Part shown: positions 20,393-28,016 of the stretch, piece by piece
How positions within the stretch are numbered: the first letter of the stretch is position 1
How the letters are laid out: each line of letters begins with the position of its first letter
Assembly (NCBI GenBank): GCA_021129655.1
Contig: JAJOLC010000017.1
Location: forward strand, 1 to 33,887
From: Minisyncoccota bacterium
GTDB taxonomy: Bacteria; Patescibacteriota; Minisyncoccia; Phycocordibacterales; UBA918
Reading direction: 5' to 3'
DNA: 33,887 nt
Translations under genes and position numbers: made by a program
The notes under the pieces: model-generated
The model's input: the letters and a program-made list of their open reading frames with translations, nothing else
Database searches by the model: none
Told to the model about the DNA's origin: nothing

Positions 20393-21499
20393 ATGAATAA
20401 ATTAGGACTTTTCCTGATATTTCTATTTTCGGCTGTTCCATCATTTACCCAGGCAGCAACTATTGGCTACGCATCCACAACCCTGACTCTGAGTATTTGT
20501 GGAAACATGCTAGTGGATGATGGTGAGGAATGTGATGTGCCAGGCGAAACTGGTGTTTACAGTCAGACTATCATTGGCAGACAGTGTTCAGCTCAGTGTC
20601 TTTTTGGTCCATATTGTGGTGACGGTATTTTACAAACCATTCACACCGAAGAATGCGATGATGGTAATAACGACAACGGAGATTTTTGCTCAGCTACTTG
20701 CAAGATTGAGCCGGCTGGTTCTGGGGGCGGCGGTTCGTCCGGTGGAGGTTCTAGTGGCAGCGGCGGCAGCACGGTAGATTTAGGGGACACAATCATTAAC
20801 ATTATTGGACGCGGCTATCCTTCTCAAACTATTAATTTTTTGCTCGATACAGTCTCGGTTGGTTCAGTTCGCTCTGATAGTTCTGGAGACTTTGAGTTCG
20901 CGACTGATGCATCACCAGGAACGGCCACTCTAGGTATCTGGGCTAATGATAGCGATAGTAATCGCTCTATTACTCTAAACAGTACCTTTGATGTCACTCA
21001 AGGTGCAGTTACTAACCTTAACGGCATACTGTTGCCGCCAACTTTGACTGTGCTGAGTCAGAATATCAACCCTGGAGATCAAATTACAATTTCGGGTGAA
21101 GGTGTTCCGAACACCACGTTGGAATTACATATTGACGACAGTGTCATTATCGAAGAAACTACTACCGATGAGGAAGGTAAGTGGTCTCTCATTTTTGATA
21201 CTAGCAAGGTGACCGTGGCTGAACATATAATAAGAGCCAGAACAGTTATTGGTAGTCCACCGCTTACCACCGAGAGTACCTTTAGTACATCCGTACAACT
21301 CTTTATTGGAGTTGAGGGTCAGGCATCTTTGTCTTCTGACTTGAATCGTGACGGCTTTGTTAATCTTATCGATTTCTCTATTTTGATTTTCTGGTGGCAA
21401 ACAGATGGTGGTACCTCTGACCCACCTGCCGACATTAACTTGAATGGTCGAGTGAGTCTGGAAGATTTTTCCATTTTGCTATTTAATTGGACAGGTTAG
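20393..21499 (+). CDS. Secreted dockerin protein with Cys-rich DUF4215-type repeat and Ig-like domains
   Basis: A 368-residue protein with a signal peptide cut probably after TQA (about residue 22) and no lipobox. Next is a Cys-rich segment (about 35-105) with CGNMLVDDGEECD and CGDGILQ, EECDDGNNDNGDFC, which matches the Myxococcus-type disulfide repeat (DUF4215). A Gly/Ser-rich linker (about 108-125) leads to two Ig-like beta domains (about 128-210 and 215-305). The last ~54 residues are a type-I-like dockerin: two calcium-loop segments, DLNRDGFVNLID (from residue 316) and DINLNGRVSLED, each followed by an FSIL-rich helix. In the second loop position 5 is Asn rather than Asp. The ATG lies 2 nt after the upstream stop. 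The likely partner is one of the three cohesins encoded 2-7 kb downstream. No enzyme domain is visible. Confidence 0.9.
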   Translation: MNKLGLFLIFLFSAVPSFTQAATIGYASTTLTLSICGNMLVDDGEECDVPGETGVYSQTIIGRQCSAQCLFGPYCGDGILQTIHTEECDDGNNDNGDFCSATCKIEPAGSGGGGSSGGGSSGSGGSTVDLGDTIINIIGRGYPSQTINFLLDTVSVGSVRSDSSGDFEFATDASPGTATLGIWANDSDSNRSITLNSTFDVTQGAVTNLNGILLPPTLTVLSQNINPGDQITISGEGVPNTTLELHIDDSVIIEETTTDEEGKWSLIFDTSKVTVAEHIIRARTVIGSPPLTTESTFSTSVQLFIGVEGQASLSSDLNRDGFVNLIDFSILIFWWQTDGGTSDPPADINLNGRVSLEDFSILLFNWTG

Positions 21500-21882: not shown

Positions 21883-22071
21883 ATTAGCATTACTGCACGC
21901 GCATTTTTTATGTACGTGGACACTTCAGCCGGTGTTACTTTGCTCGTATACTTACGGTGCAATTTTGAGTCCGGAGTGGAGACCGTGGCTCAGTACGAGA
22001 CGTATGTCTTGTCTGTATCCTCAAATATAAATACAGGCCGTGAGGTAAACAACGTAGAGTACTATGATTAG
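21883..22071 (+). CDS. Possible leader peptide with ATT start, overlapping the 22064 start
   Basis: If ATT 21883 is used, a 62-residue peptide (starting ISITARAFFMYVDTSAG when ATT is read as Ile) ends at TAG 22069-22071, overlapping the ATG of the next gene (ATGATTAG). An in-frame ATG at 21910 would give 53 residues but lacks a Shine-Dalgarno site. The strong site with ideal spacing to a rare start codon resembles the infC arrangement, but the peptide matches nothing I recognise. It could act in translational coupling, or the Shine-Dalgarno may be fortuitous. Confidence 0.25.
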   Translation: MSITARAFFMYVDTSAGVTLLVYLRCNFESGVETVAQYETYVLSVSSNINTGREVNNVEYYD

Positions 22072-23017
22072 AACGTCCAACTCGTTCTCAGTACTCCGAG
22101 CAACCGCAGCAATTGCCGGTCTAGCTGTCCTATTGTGGTCACTAGGTTTGTCATCATTTCACTTTGTGAATGCTGCAAATGTCACAACTATTAGCGATAC
22201 TCTGTCGGACTCAGCTCCAGCAGTTGTATCAAACCACACCATCACGTTCACTACTCCAACTGGAGTGGCGGCAGGTGAAGATATCGTTATTACTTTCCCC
22301 GCTGGATTTACAGGAATCGGCAGTCTAGTAGCAGCCGACCTTGACCTCCTTAATGGAGCTACTGACGAAGATCTGATTGATGGTGCTGCCTCAGCCGCTA
22401 ACTGGAATGTTACTGCTGCTGGTCAGGTAATCACTATTACTAGTGGAACTGACACTATACCGGGAGCAACAACGGTTACCATTGAAATTGGTACCAATGC
22501 AACATTCCCAGGAGCAGGTACTAACCAAATCACTAATCCAGCAACAGGTTCATATCAAGTTGAGATAACTGTTGGTTCTGGTAATGATACTGGTGCGATG
22601 AATTTAGCTATTGTAGACAACGTTACAGTTAATGCTTCTGTCGATACCCTTTTCACTTTTACAGTGACTGGAGTAGCATCAGCGCAGACTGTGAACGGTA
22701 CCACCACTGGTGGAGCTACAACAGCTACGAACATTCCGTTTGGTGCGCTTGATGCAAACACAGCTAGTACAGCTGCCCAAGACTTAAGTGTTACAACAAA
22801 TGCAGCTAATGGATTTGTCGTAACAGTTACAGCCAACGGACAGCTAAACTCAACTACTGGTGCAGATATCGATGGTTTCCGAAATGGAAACTTCGACACA
22901 ACATCTGTGCAGTGGGAAAGCCCTGCTAGCACACTAGGATCAGAAGAGACGTATGGTCACTGGGGTATTACTTCAGATGATGCAACGCTTACTGCTGGTG
23001 CTGCTACTGACTTGTAA
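22064..23017 (+). CDS. Exported beta-rich surface protein, ended by a premature in-frame TAA
   Basis: 317 residues up to TAA 23015-23017. The N-terminus has a basic start and a hydrophobic helix (about 11-33) with a likely cut after VNA. A first beta domain (about 38-180) has ITFTTPTGVAAGEDIVITF and a GNDTGAMNLAIVDN closing strand; a second domain (about 190 onward) includes FTFTVTGV, IPFGALDANT, QDLSVTTNAANGFVVTVT and TYGHWGITSDD. The second domain is cut short: the same frame continues past TAA for 67 codons with family-like sequence (next entry). From memory, Patescibacteria have proteins of this kind in which the two parts are continuous. Whether it is a broken gene, a read-through gene or a sequence error cannot be told from one sequence. 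It has a long leader with a strong Shine-Dalgarno far upstream. Confidence 0.8.
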   Translation: MIRTSNSFSVLRATAAIAGLAVLLWSLGLSSFHFVNAANVTTISDTLSDSAPAVVSNHTITFTTPTGVAAGEDIVITFPAGFTGIGSLVAADLDLLNGATDEDLIDGAASAANWNVTAAGQVITITSGTDTIPGATTVTIEIGTNATFPGAGTNQITNPATGSYQVEITVGSGNDTGAMNLAIVDNVTVNASVDTLFTFTVTGVASAQTVNGTTTGGATTATNIPFGALDANTASTAAQDLSVTTNAANGFVVTVTANGQLNSTTGADIDGFRNGNFDTTSVQWESPASTLGSEETYGHWGITSDDATLTAGAATDL

Positions 23018-23252: not shown

Positions 23253-23288
23253 AAAAAACCCTATCTCCCACCACGAGACGGGTTTTTT
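23253..23288 (+). terminator. Rho-independent terminator after the interrupted gene
   Basis: AAAAAACCC (23253-23261) and GGGTTTTTT pair across an inner CTC/GAG stem with a small internal loop. The symmetry of A and T runs suggests it could work both ways. It lies after the distal stop (23218), not after the premature one. Confidence 0.8.
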
Positions 23289-23323
23289 GAATGAGAAAAG
23301 GAGCCAAAGGCGACTATTTCGAA

Positions 23324-23361
23324 TTTAGGCAGACGCTTAGCATATTTCGACCCCGAAGGGA
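23324..23361. repeat. 38-bp element, copy 1
   Basis: Begins TTTAGGCAGACGCTTAGC and ends CCCCGAAGGGA; identical to copy 2. On the minus strand it contains CCCTTCGGGG, a UUCG-type mini-hairpin. Here flanking TATTTC (23343-23348) and GAAATA (23362-23367) enlarge the hairpin. Confidence 0.85.
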
Positions 23362-23410
23362 GAAATAGGCTGAAGCGGGCTGCAAGAAACTCCACATAAC
23401 CACGAAATCT

Positions 23411-23448
23411 TTTAGGCAGACGCTTAGCATATTTCGACCCCGAAGGGA
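23411..23448. repeat. 38-bp element, copy 2
   Basis: Identical to copy 1, 87 bp downstream and in the same orientation. Its right end runs into a perfect 14-bp hairpin. Confidence 0.85.
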
Positions 23449-23477
23449 TGAAAAGCAAACTTCTTTGCTTTTCATCC
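23446..23477. repeat. Perfect 14-bp hairpin adjoining copy 2
   Basis: GGATGAAAAGCAAA (23446-23459) and TTTGCTTTTCATCC (23464-23477) flank a CTTC loop. No T tract follows. Confidence 0.75.
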
Positions 23478-23586
23478 GGTTCTGGCACTAGCTAGAAGTT
23501 TCCGATATTCATGAGGAAATAGGTGGGACCCAACGTTAAATATCTCACTCTGTGCAGCAGAATTTTGTCTTTAGAAAATATGTAGT

Positions 23587-23597: not shown

Positions 23598-23690
23598 GTT
23601 CCCTCTATCCACCAAGTCAAGAAGCTCTAGACAGTCACCACTTTAGTAGTGCTCACCGTGTGTACAGAACGTTTTTTGTACTTTCAATAT

Positions 23691-23699
23691 TGTTATACT
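23691..23699 (+). promoter_or_regulatory. Extended -10 (TGTTATACT) for the cohesin operon
   Basis: TG at 23691-23692 and TATACT at 23694-23699 form an extended -10. The box ends 9 nt before the ATG at 23709, so the mRNA would be leaderless or nearly so. This also supports the start chosen for the first cohesin gene. Confidence 0.6.
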
Positions 23700-23708
23700 G
23701 AATACATA

Positions 23709-24815
23709 ATGAAACGTTTTAGCGCCTTATTCTTATTTGCGGTTTTTGTACTAGTCAGTCTCCCGACTGTAACCAGCGCTGCTTCCTTATACATTGACCC
23801 AGGCATGTCATCACTGAACCGAGGTGACTCGATTTCAATGAAGGTCCGCCTTGATACAGATGAGGAGGCTGGTGAATGTGTGAATGCTGCTGACGTTGTT
23901 TTGACTTATTCAGATAATATCGAACCGGTCGATATATCAATCGGATCCTCCATTTTTAACATGTGGGTTGAGAAGCCCACTATTAACAAAGTTGACCGCA
24001 CAATTACTTTTGCTGGGGGTATACCAAATGGTTATTGTGGTCGAGTGATTGGTGACCCTCGTCTATCAAATATTCTTACTGAAATTATATTCCGTTCGCC
24101 AGGCTTCACTGTTGGTGGCTCAGATTCAACTACTGCTGTTATAGAATTCACTGATGCTAGTACAGCTTATTTGAATGATGGTAGAGGGACAAAGGCAAAA
24201 CTGACAACCTTCGGTTCATTAATAGAGCTCAGTTCGTTACCTAGCAATATTCCAATCAATCCCTGGAAAGAGCAGGTGACAGCTGACGATATCCCCCCTG
24301 AGGAATTTTCGATTTTGCTACAGAAAGATGAAAAAGCCTTTTCTAGAAAATGGTACATAATCTTTAACACCTCTGACAAACAGACAGGTATCGACCATTA
24401 CGAAGTAATTGAAGAACCATTGGCCCAGTTCGGATCCTTCAAGTGGGGAAGGGCAGATGCTCCATGGTTAGTACAAAGAAGTCCCTATATCCTAAATGAC
24501 CAGTCCTTGAACAGTGTTATTCGAGTTAAGGCTATAGATAAAGCCGGTAATGAGTATATTGCTACTATCATTCCTGACGAAACTAATCGTAGTTATTCAA
24601 CCAATCAGATTCTGACAGTCTTTGTTAGCGCAAGCTCAGTATTAATATTGCTTACAATAATTTTCTTACTGTACCGTTTGTACAGAAGTAGAAAAATGAC
24701 AGCTGTATCAAACGAAGGTAAAGAAGGTGAAATTAATACCGAGGACGATGATACTCAAAATCAGGATTATACTCAGACAAATAATGAAGTAAATGATTAT
24801 GATCAACACATATAG
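23709..24815 (+). CDS. Membrane-anchored cohesin protein (first cohesin)
   Basis: I start at ATG 23709 rather than the upstream in-frame ATG 23649, because the latter lies before the promoter and the signal peptide begins at MKRFSALFLF. The 368-residue protein has a signal peptide (cut near TSA, residue 24), a cohesin-like domain at about 25-165, an Ig/FN3-like domain at about 190-295 (GIDHYEV, VKAIDKAGNEYIATI), a membrane helix at about 301-323 and an acidic cytoplasmic tail. Cohesin landmarks shared with the next gene are the SIFNMWVEKP strand, FAGGIPNGY and LNDGRGT. Cys57 and Cys110 within the cohesin could form a disulfide. It probably displays a dockerin-binding site at the cell surface. 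It overlaps the next gene by 23 nt. Its ligand is inferred to be one of the two dockerins encoded nearby. Confidence 0.85.
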   Translation: MKRFSALFLFAVFVLVSLPTVTSAASLYIDPGMSSLNRGDSISMKVRLDTDEEAGECVNAADVVLTYSDNIEPVDISIGSSIFNMWVEKPTINKVDRTITFAGGIPNGYCGRVIGDPRLSNILTEIIFRSPGFTVGGSDSTTAVIEFTDASTAYLNDGRGTKAKLTTFGSLIELSSLPSNIPINPWKEQVTADDIPPEEFSILLQKDEKAFSRKWYIIFNTSDKQTGIDHYEVIEEPLAQFGSFKWGRADAPWLVQRSPYILNDQSLNSVIRVKAIDKAGNEYIATIIPDETNRSYSTNQILTVFVSASSVLILLTIIFLLYRLYRSRKMTAVSNEGKEGEINTEDDDTQNQDYTQTNNEVNDYDQHI

Positions 24816-26568
24816 CTCTCTAACAGTAAAGTTTGTGCAGTTGTTTATGGCGACTCTGCTTGGATTCACCCTGTACCTATCTTCAGCAATTATTGCTGAA
24901 GCGGCTTCTCTGGCACTGTCCCCAAGTACTGGTGTCTATACTAGCAATAGCACCTTTACGGTTAGGGTTGTTGTGAATACCTCCGGCCAGTCTGTTAATG
25001 CTTCCGAAGGTTCGTTGTCTTTTAATCCTAGTGAATTATCGGTAGTTTCGGTTAATCGGACAGGCTCTATATTTAGTCTTTGGGTAGCTGAGCCATCTTT
25101 TTCAAATAGTGCAGGAACTATTAGTTTCAGTGGTGGTTTGCCTTCTGGCTACTCAGGCATGGTGGGAACTATCATGAATGTAACCTTCAGAGCTAAAGGG
25201 TCTGGTGCAGCTAAGGTTAATTTTAACAGCGGATCAGTGCTTGCGAATGATGGCAGAGGAACAAATATTTTAACCTCAATGAATGGTGGTACTTATACTA
25301 TTCAGGCAAAATCCTTAGCACCACAACCCGAGATTATTGAGTATGTCGCTCCGGCTAACACCCCAGCCGCGCCCAAAATAACATCCCCAACTCATCCCGA
25401 TTCCAGTAAGTGGTATTCGAGCAATGTAGCAGAATTGAGCTGGTCTCTACCAAGCGGAGTTACCGCAGTGAGAACTTTACTGAATGAAAATCCGACATCA
25501 GTCCCAACAAAAGTTTACGATAATCCAATCGAGTCGATTTCTATAAACGAATTAGATGAGGGGGTATCTTACTTCCATCTACAGTTGAAGAATTCTGATG
25601 GGTGGGGAAGAGTCACTCACTATCGCTTAGGAGTTGATACAGCTAATCCTTCGAGTATTCAAGTATCTACAGTAGAAGGGTCTGATTTAGCTAATCCTAT
25701 ACAGACTCTGAAGGTTGATGTGGTAGATGAAACTTCGAATGTTTTGAGATTTATGGTGAAGTTGGATTCTGACGAACCTTACGAGTTTATTGATGTGACA
25801 GGGTCAAGTACTATTGAGATGCCTTCACTTGAACCAGGTTATCATTCCGTGATTATTGAAGCTTTCGATCAAGCAGGAAATAGCATTGTTGGAACCTATT
25901 CATTTACTATTCTAGCTTTTGATAAACCAATTTTTACGGATTACCCAACTGAAATTAATGAAGAAGTAATTCCTGTCATTAAGGGTATAACACGTCCGAA
26001 CTCTGATGTTGAAGTTACTATCACTAAGGTGGGAGGCGAGCCGACAGCCTACTCGGTTACTAGTGATGCTGATGGACAATTTATATTTATTCCGGAAGGC
26101 ACATTTTCAAACGGAGTTTACGAGTTAGTAGCTCAGGCATCTGATGCCTTTGGTGCTAAGAGTGAATTCTCAGACACTGTGCGGATTGCTGTGCAGCAAC
26201 CAGGGTATCTGAGAGTTGGTTCTCTGATTGTTAGTGTACTCTCTGTTCTTATTCCACTACTTGTACTGCTGTTTATTCTGATAATTGGTGGTTGGTACAT
26301 GTTTGTTTACGCACGTCGCTTTAGGAAGCGAGTGCGAGTAGAATCTGCTGAAGCTTTACAGATTCTCAATAGCGAATTTGCTTATCTTAAGAGAACGCTA
26401 AGCGAGCAGGAAGCCATTATTCAAAGTACCAGAAAGACCAAAAAGCTTACAAAGGCAGAAGCTGAAATGATTGAAGTTATGAATACCGCATTGCAGGCAT
26501 CAAGACAAAAAGTTGAAAAAGAGATTGAAGATGTTGCAGACTTAGCTCGAAAAGAAAATAATAAATAA
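24793..26568 (+). CDS. Membrane-anchored cohesin protein with Ig-like domains and cytoplasmic coiled coil (second cohesin)
   Basis: A 591-residue protein. A signal segment (about 8-36, ending AEAAS) precedes a cohesin domain (about 37-165) with SFNPSELSVVSV, SIFSLWVAEPSFSNSAG, SFSGGLPSGYSGMVG and LANDGRGTN. Three or so Ig/FN3-like domains follow (about 190-290, 290-375 and 380-465; AFDQAGNSIVGTYSF, YELVAQASDAFGAKSEF). A strong membrane helix at about 476-504 leads to a basic stop-transfer (YARRFRKRVRV) and an 80-residue charged, helical cytoplasmic tail that looks like a coiled coil. The start codon lies inside the previous gene, and the stop is 1 nt before the next start, so expression is surely coupled. 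The long cytoplasmic coiled coil is unusual for a scaffold anchor and hints at oligomerisation or signalling. Confidence 0.87.
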   Translation: MIMINTYSSLTVKFVQLFMATLLGFTLYLSSAIIAEAASLALSPSTGVYTSNSTFTVRVVVNTSGQSVNASEGSLSFNPSELSVVSVNRTGSIFSLWVAEPSFSNSAGTISFSGGLPSGYSGMVGTIMNVTFRAKGSGAAKVNFNSGSVLANDGRGTNILTSMNGGTYTIQAKSLAPQPEIIEYVAPANTPAAPKITSPTHPDSSKWYSSNVAELSWSLPSGVTAVRTLLNENPTSVPTKVYDNPIESISINELDEGVSYFHLQLKNSDGWGRVTHYRLGVDTANPSSIQVSTVEGSDLANPIQTLKVDVVDETSNVLRFMVKLDSDEPYEFIDVTGSSTIEMPSLEPGYHSVIIEAFDQAGNSIVGTYSFTILAFDKPIFTDYPTEINEEVIPVIKGITRPNSDVEVTITKVGGEPTAYSVTSDADGQFIFIPEGTFSNGVYELVAQASDAFGAKSEFSDTVRIAVQQPGYLRVGSLIVSVLSVLIPLLVLLFILIIGGWYMFVYARRFRKRVRVESAEALQILNSEFAYLKRTLSEQEAIIQSTRKTKKLTKAEAEMIEVMNTALQASRQKVEKEIEDVADLARKENNK

Positions 26569-26569
26569 T

Positions 26570-27262
26570 ATGACAAATACCCAAACATCTGAACCATCAA
26601 AAATTAAAACTATCGCACTACTGATTGTTGTGGTAGTTGCTGCTTATTTTCTCGTCACAACTCTAGTCAATAATAAATTTAGTGAGATTGAAGATTCTGT
26701 AATGGTACAAGTTTATGATCAGGAAGAATTACTTAAGGCTATTGTCAAAATTGTCTATGCTGATAGTACTGACCTAAAAATTGAATCAGTAATCACTGAC
26801 TGCAACACATCCGAACGTACTCAATTCCACGATTCGCTTGACCGTCTTAATCAGAATTTATCTATCCAAGAACTAAAGGAGCTAGAGCTCCTCTTTAGTC
26901 GTTGTGGTAGTTTTGACTCAGAAAGTAAATTGATTTTGATAGCAAGACTAACTAGAGAAGTTGAGGTTTATGAAACATACGTTAGTACCCTAAGTGTCAT
27001 TACAGGGGGGGATGTGTATTCTGAATTTTCGGTTGATAAGTGGAAAGGTTTAGCAGCAGAGGAACAAAGACAGGCACTTCTGTATTCTAATTTGGTTAAC
27101 CTTCAGGGTGAAATTATCACTAGCTTATTATCTGGCAAGGATCAAGCGTCACCAGAAATTAATAAAATACTACAAGAAGTGTCAGAAGTTAAAGGTAATT
27201 TAATCGTACTTAACCAGCAGACTGAAAAAGTTCGTACAGAGCTTGTTCCTATACAGAATTAG
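26570..27262 (+). CDS. Single-pass membrane protein with extracytoplasmic helical domain, unknown function
   Basis: A 230-residue protein: a short polar N-terminus, a membrane helix at about 13-33 (IALLIVVVVAAYFLVTTLV), and a mostly helical, charged outer domain with heptad-like stretches (EELLKAIVKIVY, LDRLNQNLSIQELKELELLF, EINKILQEVSEVKGNL). Two cysteines (TDCNTSE and SRCGSFD, about 34 residues apart) may pair. I recognise no family. It sits between two cohesin genes, 1 nt after one and 7 nt before the next, so it is very likely a component of the same surface assembly, perhaps a spacer or membrane organiser. Confidence 0.75.
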   Translation: MTNTQTSEPSKIKTIALLIVVVVAAYFLVTTLVNNKFSEIEDSVMVQVYDQEELLKAIVKIVYADSTDLKIESVITDCNTSERTQFHDSLDRLNQNLSIQELKELELLFSRCGSFDSESKLILIARLTREVEVYETYVSTLSVITGGDVYSEFSVDKWKGLAAEEQRQALLYSNLVNLQGEIITSLLSGKDQASPEINKILQEVSEVKGNLIVLNQQTEKVRTELVPIQN

Positions 27263-27269
27263 CTAATCT

Positions 27270-28016
27270 ATGAACCAGTTACTTCATTCGATTAAATTAT
27301 TCTTTAAATTCCGAAATCGGGGCGGTACGGTTCGTTATATGTTTTCAGCCGTGCTTTCATTTGCAGTCTTGCTTGGTGCCGCTGTTATCACATCCAACGA
27401 TTCTTCGTATATCAGGCTGCAGTCGTCAGCTGCAACGATTGAGCAAGGAAAACCCTTTTATGTTGATGTTTTCGCCTATGCTCATGTTCCTGTCAATGCT
27501 GTTGATATCACTATTAATTTTGATCAAGAAGCTGTGTCGGTAACAGGGGTTGATACAGGCCAGTCTGTGCTAACTATCTGGACAGAGGAACCGATAATAG
27601 AATCAAAGAAGGTAATCCTGCGAGGAGGCACTTTCCGTAAGGGATTTGTTACTGAACACAAGATCGCTACAATTAAACTAAAGGCAAATAAAACTGGAAA
27701 TAGTTCAGTTAGTGCTTCCGACGTAATTCTTTTGGCAGGTGATGGTGCTGGTACACCCGTGACAGTGACAGAATCTGTAGATAATTACGTTAATTTATAT
27801 GTTTATGACCAAAATTCTGAACCCGGTAGTATCGGAGTGAATGTTTCAGTTAGCATCGTTACTGACATAAACCGTGACGGCAAAGTGAGCCTTCAAGATA
27901 TTAGTATATTCATGTCAGCCTGGGGTACTAAAAGTCAGATCTTTGATTTTAATAATGACGGCAAGATGACATTTAAAGATTTCTCGATTATCTTATCTGA
28001 TTTCTTTACTAGGTGA
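27270..28016 (+). CDS. Cohesin-dockerin protein (third cohesin, second dockerin)
   Basis: A 248-residue protein with a basic N-terminus and a hydrophobic segment at about 23-42. The cohesin-like domain (about 46-165) has VNAVDITINFDQEAVSVTGV, SVLTIWTEEP, LRGGTFRKGF and a GDGAGT motif parallel to NDGRGT of the other cohesins. The C-terminal ~50 residues are a type-I-like dockerin with two complete calcium loops, DINRDGKVSLQD (from residue 199) and DFNNDGKMTFKD, each followed by an ISIF or FSII helix. Both halves in one chain allow head-to-tail assembly or linkage of a dockerin protein to an anchored cohesin. Whether the N-terminal helix is cleaved or stays as an anchor is unclear. It is the last gene of the operon and the only one in the window ending with TGA. 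Confidence 0.9.
   Translation: MNQLLHSIKLFFKFRNRGGTVRYMFSAVLSFAVLLGAAVITSNDSSYIRLQSSAATIEQGKPFYVDVFAYAHVPVNAVDITINFDQEAVSVTGVDTGQSVLTIWTEEPIIESKKVILRGGTFRKGFVTEHKIATIKLKANKTGNSSVSASDVILLAGDGAGTPVTVTESVDNYVNLYVYDQNSEPGSIGVNVSVSIVTDINRDGKVSLQDISIFMSAWGTKSQIFDFNNDGKMTFKDFSIILSDFFTR

Follow-up and report, generated by a model that had tools for sequence, protein, structure and literature searches.

What does a single short protein bind when a cohesin and a dockerin are both part of it? Pairs of these two modules are familiar as links between different proteins, and a natural single protein that pairs with itself would, if this is true, represent a compact, calcium-controlled polymer module. Such a protein, here called CohDoc, is encoded within a 33,887-nucleotide stretch of DNA from a Minisyncoccota bacterium. 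This stretch, referred to as the window, is an entire contig of a 722-kb genome that is 97% complete. On the basis of sequence comparisons, we put the probability that the membrane-anchored CohDoc binds copies of itself, either as a head-to-tail chain or as a reciprocal dimer, at around one half.

Architecture of CohDoc

The CohDoc gene (27270..28016, forward strand, as are the 20393, 23649, 24793 and 26570 genes below) is an uninterrupted 248-codon open reading frame. The original prediction that its 248-residue product contains a hydrophobic segment, a cohesin and a dockerin is borne out by Pfam, by AlphaFold and Foldseek, and by 21 relatives of the same architecture. The N-terminal part holds a predicted membrane helix (residues 22-41, 27333..27392), which is indicated by the AlphaFold model, hydropathy and alignment; the top 19-residue Kyte-Doolittle window begins at residue 24 with a mean of 2.09. 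Upstream of the helix, the alignment displays a basic N-terminal tail and a conserved TVRxxF motif. The helix is predicted to be either a signal anchor or a signal peptide, and we infer that the protein stays anchored in the membrane as opposed to being cleaved.

The cohesin module (residues 46-180, 27405..27809) is recognized by a profile match (27405-27794, E 1.8e-47), by Foldseek matches to the PDB, and by Pfam Cohesin matches in relatives. Pfam returned no Cohesin match for the window copy at E<=0.1, and in the search of its own genome PF00963 scored 16.1 bits, below the curated cut-off of 24.1; the family matches 12 of the 26 aligned relatives, at best with 2.7e-7. The AlphaFold model has a mean pLDDT of 80.8, with the cohesin module mostly above 90, and has the cohesin beta-sandwich fold in this module. 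Among the 50 Foldseek matches listed, 49 are cohesins or cohesin-containing chains, the sole other match being an adhesin domain. The closest structures are 2jh2, 5lxv and 2vo8, the top E value is 6.6e-9, and the TM scores reach at most 0.82 by target length.

A linker (residues 181-196, 27810..27857), in which model confidence is low at 187-195, leads to a type I dockerin with two F-hands (residues 197-246, 27858..28007). Pfam Dockerin_1 (PF00404) covers residues 198-241 with 26.9 bits against a curated cut-off of 22.9, the profile match is 2.2e-26, and all 26 relatives are matched by Dockerin_1 at E<=0.01. The dockerin is a duplicated F-hand with calcium residues at positions 1, 3, 5 and 12, and its calcium loops are DINRDGKVSLQD (residues 199-210) and DFNNDGKMTFKD (residues 226-237). 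A sequence search of the structure database with CohDoc also found the dockerin (2y3n, 2.9e-5) and, weakly, the cohesin. The whole architecture occurs in 21 other genomes at 42-62% identity, 20 of the same genus and one of a neighboring genus, which excludes its origin by chance; with that of the window, 22 genomes keep a cohesin and a dockerin in one protein.

The gene cluster around CohDoc

The cluster begins with genes for an ABC transporter, a surface protein and a NEW3-like protein, followed by a dockerin protein (20393), a secreted protein (22064), two anchored cohesin proteins (23649 and 24793), a 230-residue membrane protein (26570) and CohDoc (27270). On the 3' side of CohDoc lie a TolB-like propeller protein (28142) and then a large surface protein. 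Other members of the genus keep the same order, apart from a rearrangement in G017 and interruptions where contigs end. The dockerin protein is a secreted DUF4215/Ig-like protein (20393..21499) with a C-terminal dockerin of another class (21335-21493). One of the anchored cohesin proteins is encoded by a 388-residue open reading frame (23649..24815), which probably starts at residue 21, and has a cohesin at 23781-24209 and a C-terminal membrane helix. The other, of 591 residues (24793..26568), has a cohesin at 24904-25305, an Ig-like domain, a membrane helix and a cytosolic helical tail. The single-pass membrane protein gene (26570..27262) is directly upstream of CohDoc, and a gene for this 230-residue protein holds that position in all 21 related loci with CohDoc; of the 19 loci in which the gap between the two genes was measured, 18 have a value of -11 to +9 and one has 237.

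A second locus in the same genome, on contig C40, encodes a fourth cohesin in a 512-codon frame (the 511-residue anchored cohesin protein) and a third dockerin in a 672-codon frame (the 654-residue dockerin protein). Between these dockerin and cohesin genes is a small heat-shock (Hsp20-like) gene (L066 1715-2182), and such a gene takes this position in all of the second-locus stretches compared. A search of a plasmid collection gave no match. No hydrolase and no carbohydrate-binding or carbohydrate-degrading family was found in the 13 window proteins scanned, and with neither an enzyme nor a carbohydrate-degrading module among them the locus does not qualify as part of a cellulosome.

The genome G039 has the dockerin-cohesin-cohesin core of the cluster without the window's type of CohDoc, termed CohDoc1, and without the gene for the 230-residue protein; the standalone dockerin encoded there belongs to the same class as other standalone dockerins. 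The core cluster does not, therefore, need CohDoc1, which looks like an addition to it.

Several smaller features of the cluster can be described. The 317-residue frame of the secreted protein (22064-23017) ends at an in-frame stop (23015-23017), beyond which the same frame runs on for 66 codons (DVGGDGQNYV...TYIATPVF, to 23218), and this extension matches the ends of longer relatives; the stop may represent either a truncation or a sequence error. The C40 dockerin protein (L066 2321-4285) has an N-terminal part similar to this secreted protein, including a DTLSDS...SNHT motif; the part is a separate gene in the window locus and is joined to a dockerin on C40. The region that separates the 22064 and 23649 genes, otherwise poor in open reading frames, contains two copies (at about 23280-23500) of a short stretch that reads RRLAYFDPEG in one frame. 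The G030 version of the cluster (L057) has several broken genes. Joint decay was considered as a cause and rejected, since the dockerin gene of its second locus (L070) is also broken and frameshift errors in the assembly are likelier.

Dockerin classes, the cohesin branch and genomes with a lone CohDoc

The dockerin of CohDoc belongs to a different class from the standalone dockerins, by which we mean those of the 20393 type and of the second locus across the genus, and the two classes diverge in the region used for recognition. Standalone dockerins of both loci are near-symmetric and have Phe18 and Trp20 in both F-hands. Phe18 is found in 32 of 34 (hand 1) and 30 of 34 (hand 2), against 0 of 21 and 1 of 21 in CohDoc1, and Trp20 of hand 2 is found in 32 of 33, against 0 of 21. 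The spacing between the hands is 19 residues in 33 of 34 standalone dockerins and 15 in both 20/21 CohDoc1 proteins and 13/13 of CohDoc2, a second family introduced below. CohDoc1 dockerins have Ala, Ser, Gly or another non-Phe residue at position 18, Trp20 in hand 1 only, often Lys or Arg at position 11, and Phe10 in hand 2. The differences at position 18, hand-2 Trp20, position 11 and hand-2 position 10, together with the spacing, are consistent across about 20 genomes, and other CohDoc families, with sequences compared by eye, likewise lack the Phe18/Trp20 signature in both hands. Near-symmetric hands are a feature of dual binding, and the asymmetric hands of CohDoc1 suggest a single binding orientation.

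The similarity of the helix segments DISIFM and DFSIIL in CohDoc to DFSILI and DFSILL in the 20393 dockerin had been taken to indicate a common specificity. The motifs are real. However, they belong to the conserved helix core of the F-hand, as positions 12 and 14, and also 15 and 17 in hand 2, are common to both classes; the resemblance is hence uninformative on specificity, and the argument from it was rejected. A different dockerin class does not, equally, prove a different partner.

The cohesins divide along similar lines. In a tree of 106 cohesins, a quick build with few columns and several long branches, CohDoc1 and CohDoc2 lie together on one side of a branch with an SH-aLRT of 100 and a length of 1.36, and all of the anchored cohesins fall outside this side. 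The positions that separate CohDoc1 from other cohesins include residues 80, 117, 121-123 and 126, in a region that we take to correspond to the face through which cellulosomal cohesins contact dockerins (beta-3 and beta-5/6). For the dockerins, a joint group of CohDoc1 and CohDoc2 is not rejected (p 0.83, 54 columns).

The CohDoc2 gene stands on its own, and its product has the architecture of the window protein, to which it is 25-28% identical when the entire proteins are compared. In the genome G031 (98% complete, 1% contamination), one cohesin and one dockerin are detectable, both in one CohDoc2 of 244 residues, and Pfam recovers the same single dockerin. The single dockerin of G013 (91% complete) is in an open reading frame with a divergent cohesin upstream; this cohesin was missed by the cohesin profile, showing that divergent cohesins can escape detection. 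The argument from lone genes draws on these two incomplete genomes and on the CohDoc2 family; G025 was left out, as its single dockerin match is a 107-residue frame without a recognized cohesin. As far as such gene inventories go, the two genomes favor self-pairing for CohDoc2, with partners on other cells also possible, and the argument may be transferred to CohDoc1, the family of the window. Genomes with a lone CohDoc reduce the question of self-pairing to one short protein.

CohDoc proteins are spread more widely. Matches to the CohDoc2 profile, mostly to anchored cohesins, were found in 131 of 397 genomes in an order-level search and in 99 of 384 in a class-level search. Full cohesin-dockerin proteins are also present in G173, G224, G257, G278, G381, G561 and G566. 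The protein of G566 (L135 1297-2745) is a 483-residue frame in which a long hydrophobic N-terminal part, probably multi-pass, precedes a cohesin, and a dockerin follows the cohesin with hardly any linker between them.

Possible binding partners of CohDoc and known systems

From these comparisons we infer binding as such, its partner and its geometry. The N-terminal helix would keep CohDoc close to the membrane, at the cell surface, with the cohesin directly above the membrane and the dockerin above the cohesin on a short linker. The dockerin, being of its own class, would most likely fit the cohesin of another CohDoc copy, in a homotypic and calcium-dependent pairing between molecules. Within the membrane plane, the copies would be joined either head to tail as chains or reciprocally as dimers. 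CohDoc and the upstream 230-residue membrane protein would have been added to an older surface cluster, in which a different specificity would bring the secreted dockerin protein together with the two anchored cohesin proteins.

The main alternative, itself rather unlikely, is that CohDoc acts as an adaptor, whose dockerin enters an anchored cohesin (of the 388-, 591- or second-locus 511-residue protein) and whose own cohesin takes a dockerin of the 20393 type or another. The genes for a dockerin protein and for anchored cohesins lie in the same cluster as CohDoc1, whose dockerin has in hand 1 the hydrophobic L10 and the W20 of the other dockerins, and adaptors that combine a single cohesin with a dockerin of a second specificity have been described (PMC4959524). 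Of the 30 same-genus genomes searched for both genes, 15 have the 20393 orthologue and these same 15 have CohDoc1, although this association is confounded because the two genes sit in one cluster. Against an adaptor, both the dockerin class and the cohesin branch of CohDoc are unlike those of its neighbors, the cluster of G039 manages without CohDoc1, and an adaptor requires further partners, none of which was detected in G031. A chain of CohDoc copies fits better than an adaptor because of the lone-CohDoc genomes (G031, and G013 with its divergent cohesin) and the separate cohesin branch. Together, these features suggest that the dockerin is matched to other CohDoc copies rather than to the neighboring cohesins, and that chains could form at the surface.

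It is improbable that the dockerin instead closes onto the cohesin of its own molecule, or that the modules bind proteins of a host or a neighboring cell. The linker of the window protein, at about 16 residues, could permit folding back, whereas in the families of G257, G278, G561 and G566 only 22 residues separate the DGxG motif from the first calcium loop; with almost no linker, folding back is disfavored in these four families. AlphaFold monomers of CohDoc1 and CohDoc2 have no confident domain arrangement (pTM 0.56 and 0.55), and the former does not provide a confident closed form. Genomes with a lone CohDoc are equally compatible with a partner on another cell, and a dockerin-domain protein was scored as essential in a cultivated epibiotic patescibacterium, for which the authors speculate on glycans of the host cell (PMC10633639). 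Very improbable is a structural relic, in which the folded modules no longer bind and the work is done by the membrane part and the neighboring 230-residue protein. Some CohDoc2 copies have half a dockerin, as those in G024 and G030 (L087 4185-4850 and L088 4036-4650) end after one F-hand; on the other hand, each of the 26 relatives has aspartate at positions 1, 5 and 12 in the two calcium loops, and the cohesin motif residues are retained. More tentatively than self-binding itself, we suggest that anchored CohDocs form a homotypic linker, in which a co-evolved plug and socket from one gene would connect identical neighboring molecules at the cell surface and so produce a calcium-controlled two-dimensional polymer, independent of enzyme complexes, in very small bacteria.

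Self-recognition has a precedent in Archaeoglobus fulgidus, where ORF2375 combines a cohesin with the single dockerin of the organism, and this dockerin binds both of its cohesins. The ORF2375/ORF2376 pair resembles CohDoc in being noncellulosomal and in having few modules, and the A. fulgidus cohesin structure 2xdh is among the Foldseek matches listed. In contrast, the pair is archaeal, uses one dockerin for both cohesins, and differs in size and anchor, whereas here one locus combines two dockerin classes. The ORF2375 dockerin and the ORF2376 cohesin are cited as a strong pair in PMC9705933.

Open-access literature matches for Patescibacteria, CPR and Parcubacteria included no paper describing cohesin-dockerin systems of the lineage. 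In comparison with known cohesin-dockerin proteins, what appears to be new, as judged from sequence, is that CohDoc is anchored, has a single cohesin and is probably self-matched. ScaC of Ruminococcus flavefaciens is a monovalent adaptor scaffoldin, and its cohesin structure, 5lxv, is the second Foldseek match for CohDoc. Such scaffoldins have one cohesin and one dockerin per protein (PMC4959524), a composition that CohDoc shares, but they join two specificities and serve cellulosomes, whereas the evidence on CohDoc points to one shared specificity. The proteins of ANME archaea are also noncellulosomal, and some combine a dockerin with cohesins; unlike CohDoc, they carry multiple cohesins (up to 5) in a scaffoldin-like arrangement, and the ANME passage of PMC9012536 gives no case of self-pairing. 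Finally, the noncellulosomal cohesin modules of Clostridium perfringens (2jh2, 2vo8 and 2w1n) are among the closest folds in the Foldseek matches listed, but these modules belong to glycoside hydrolases, whereas CohDoc is an anchored single-cohesin protein.
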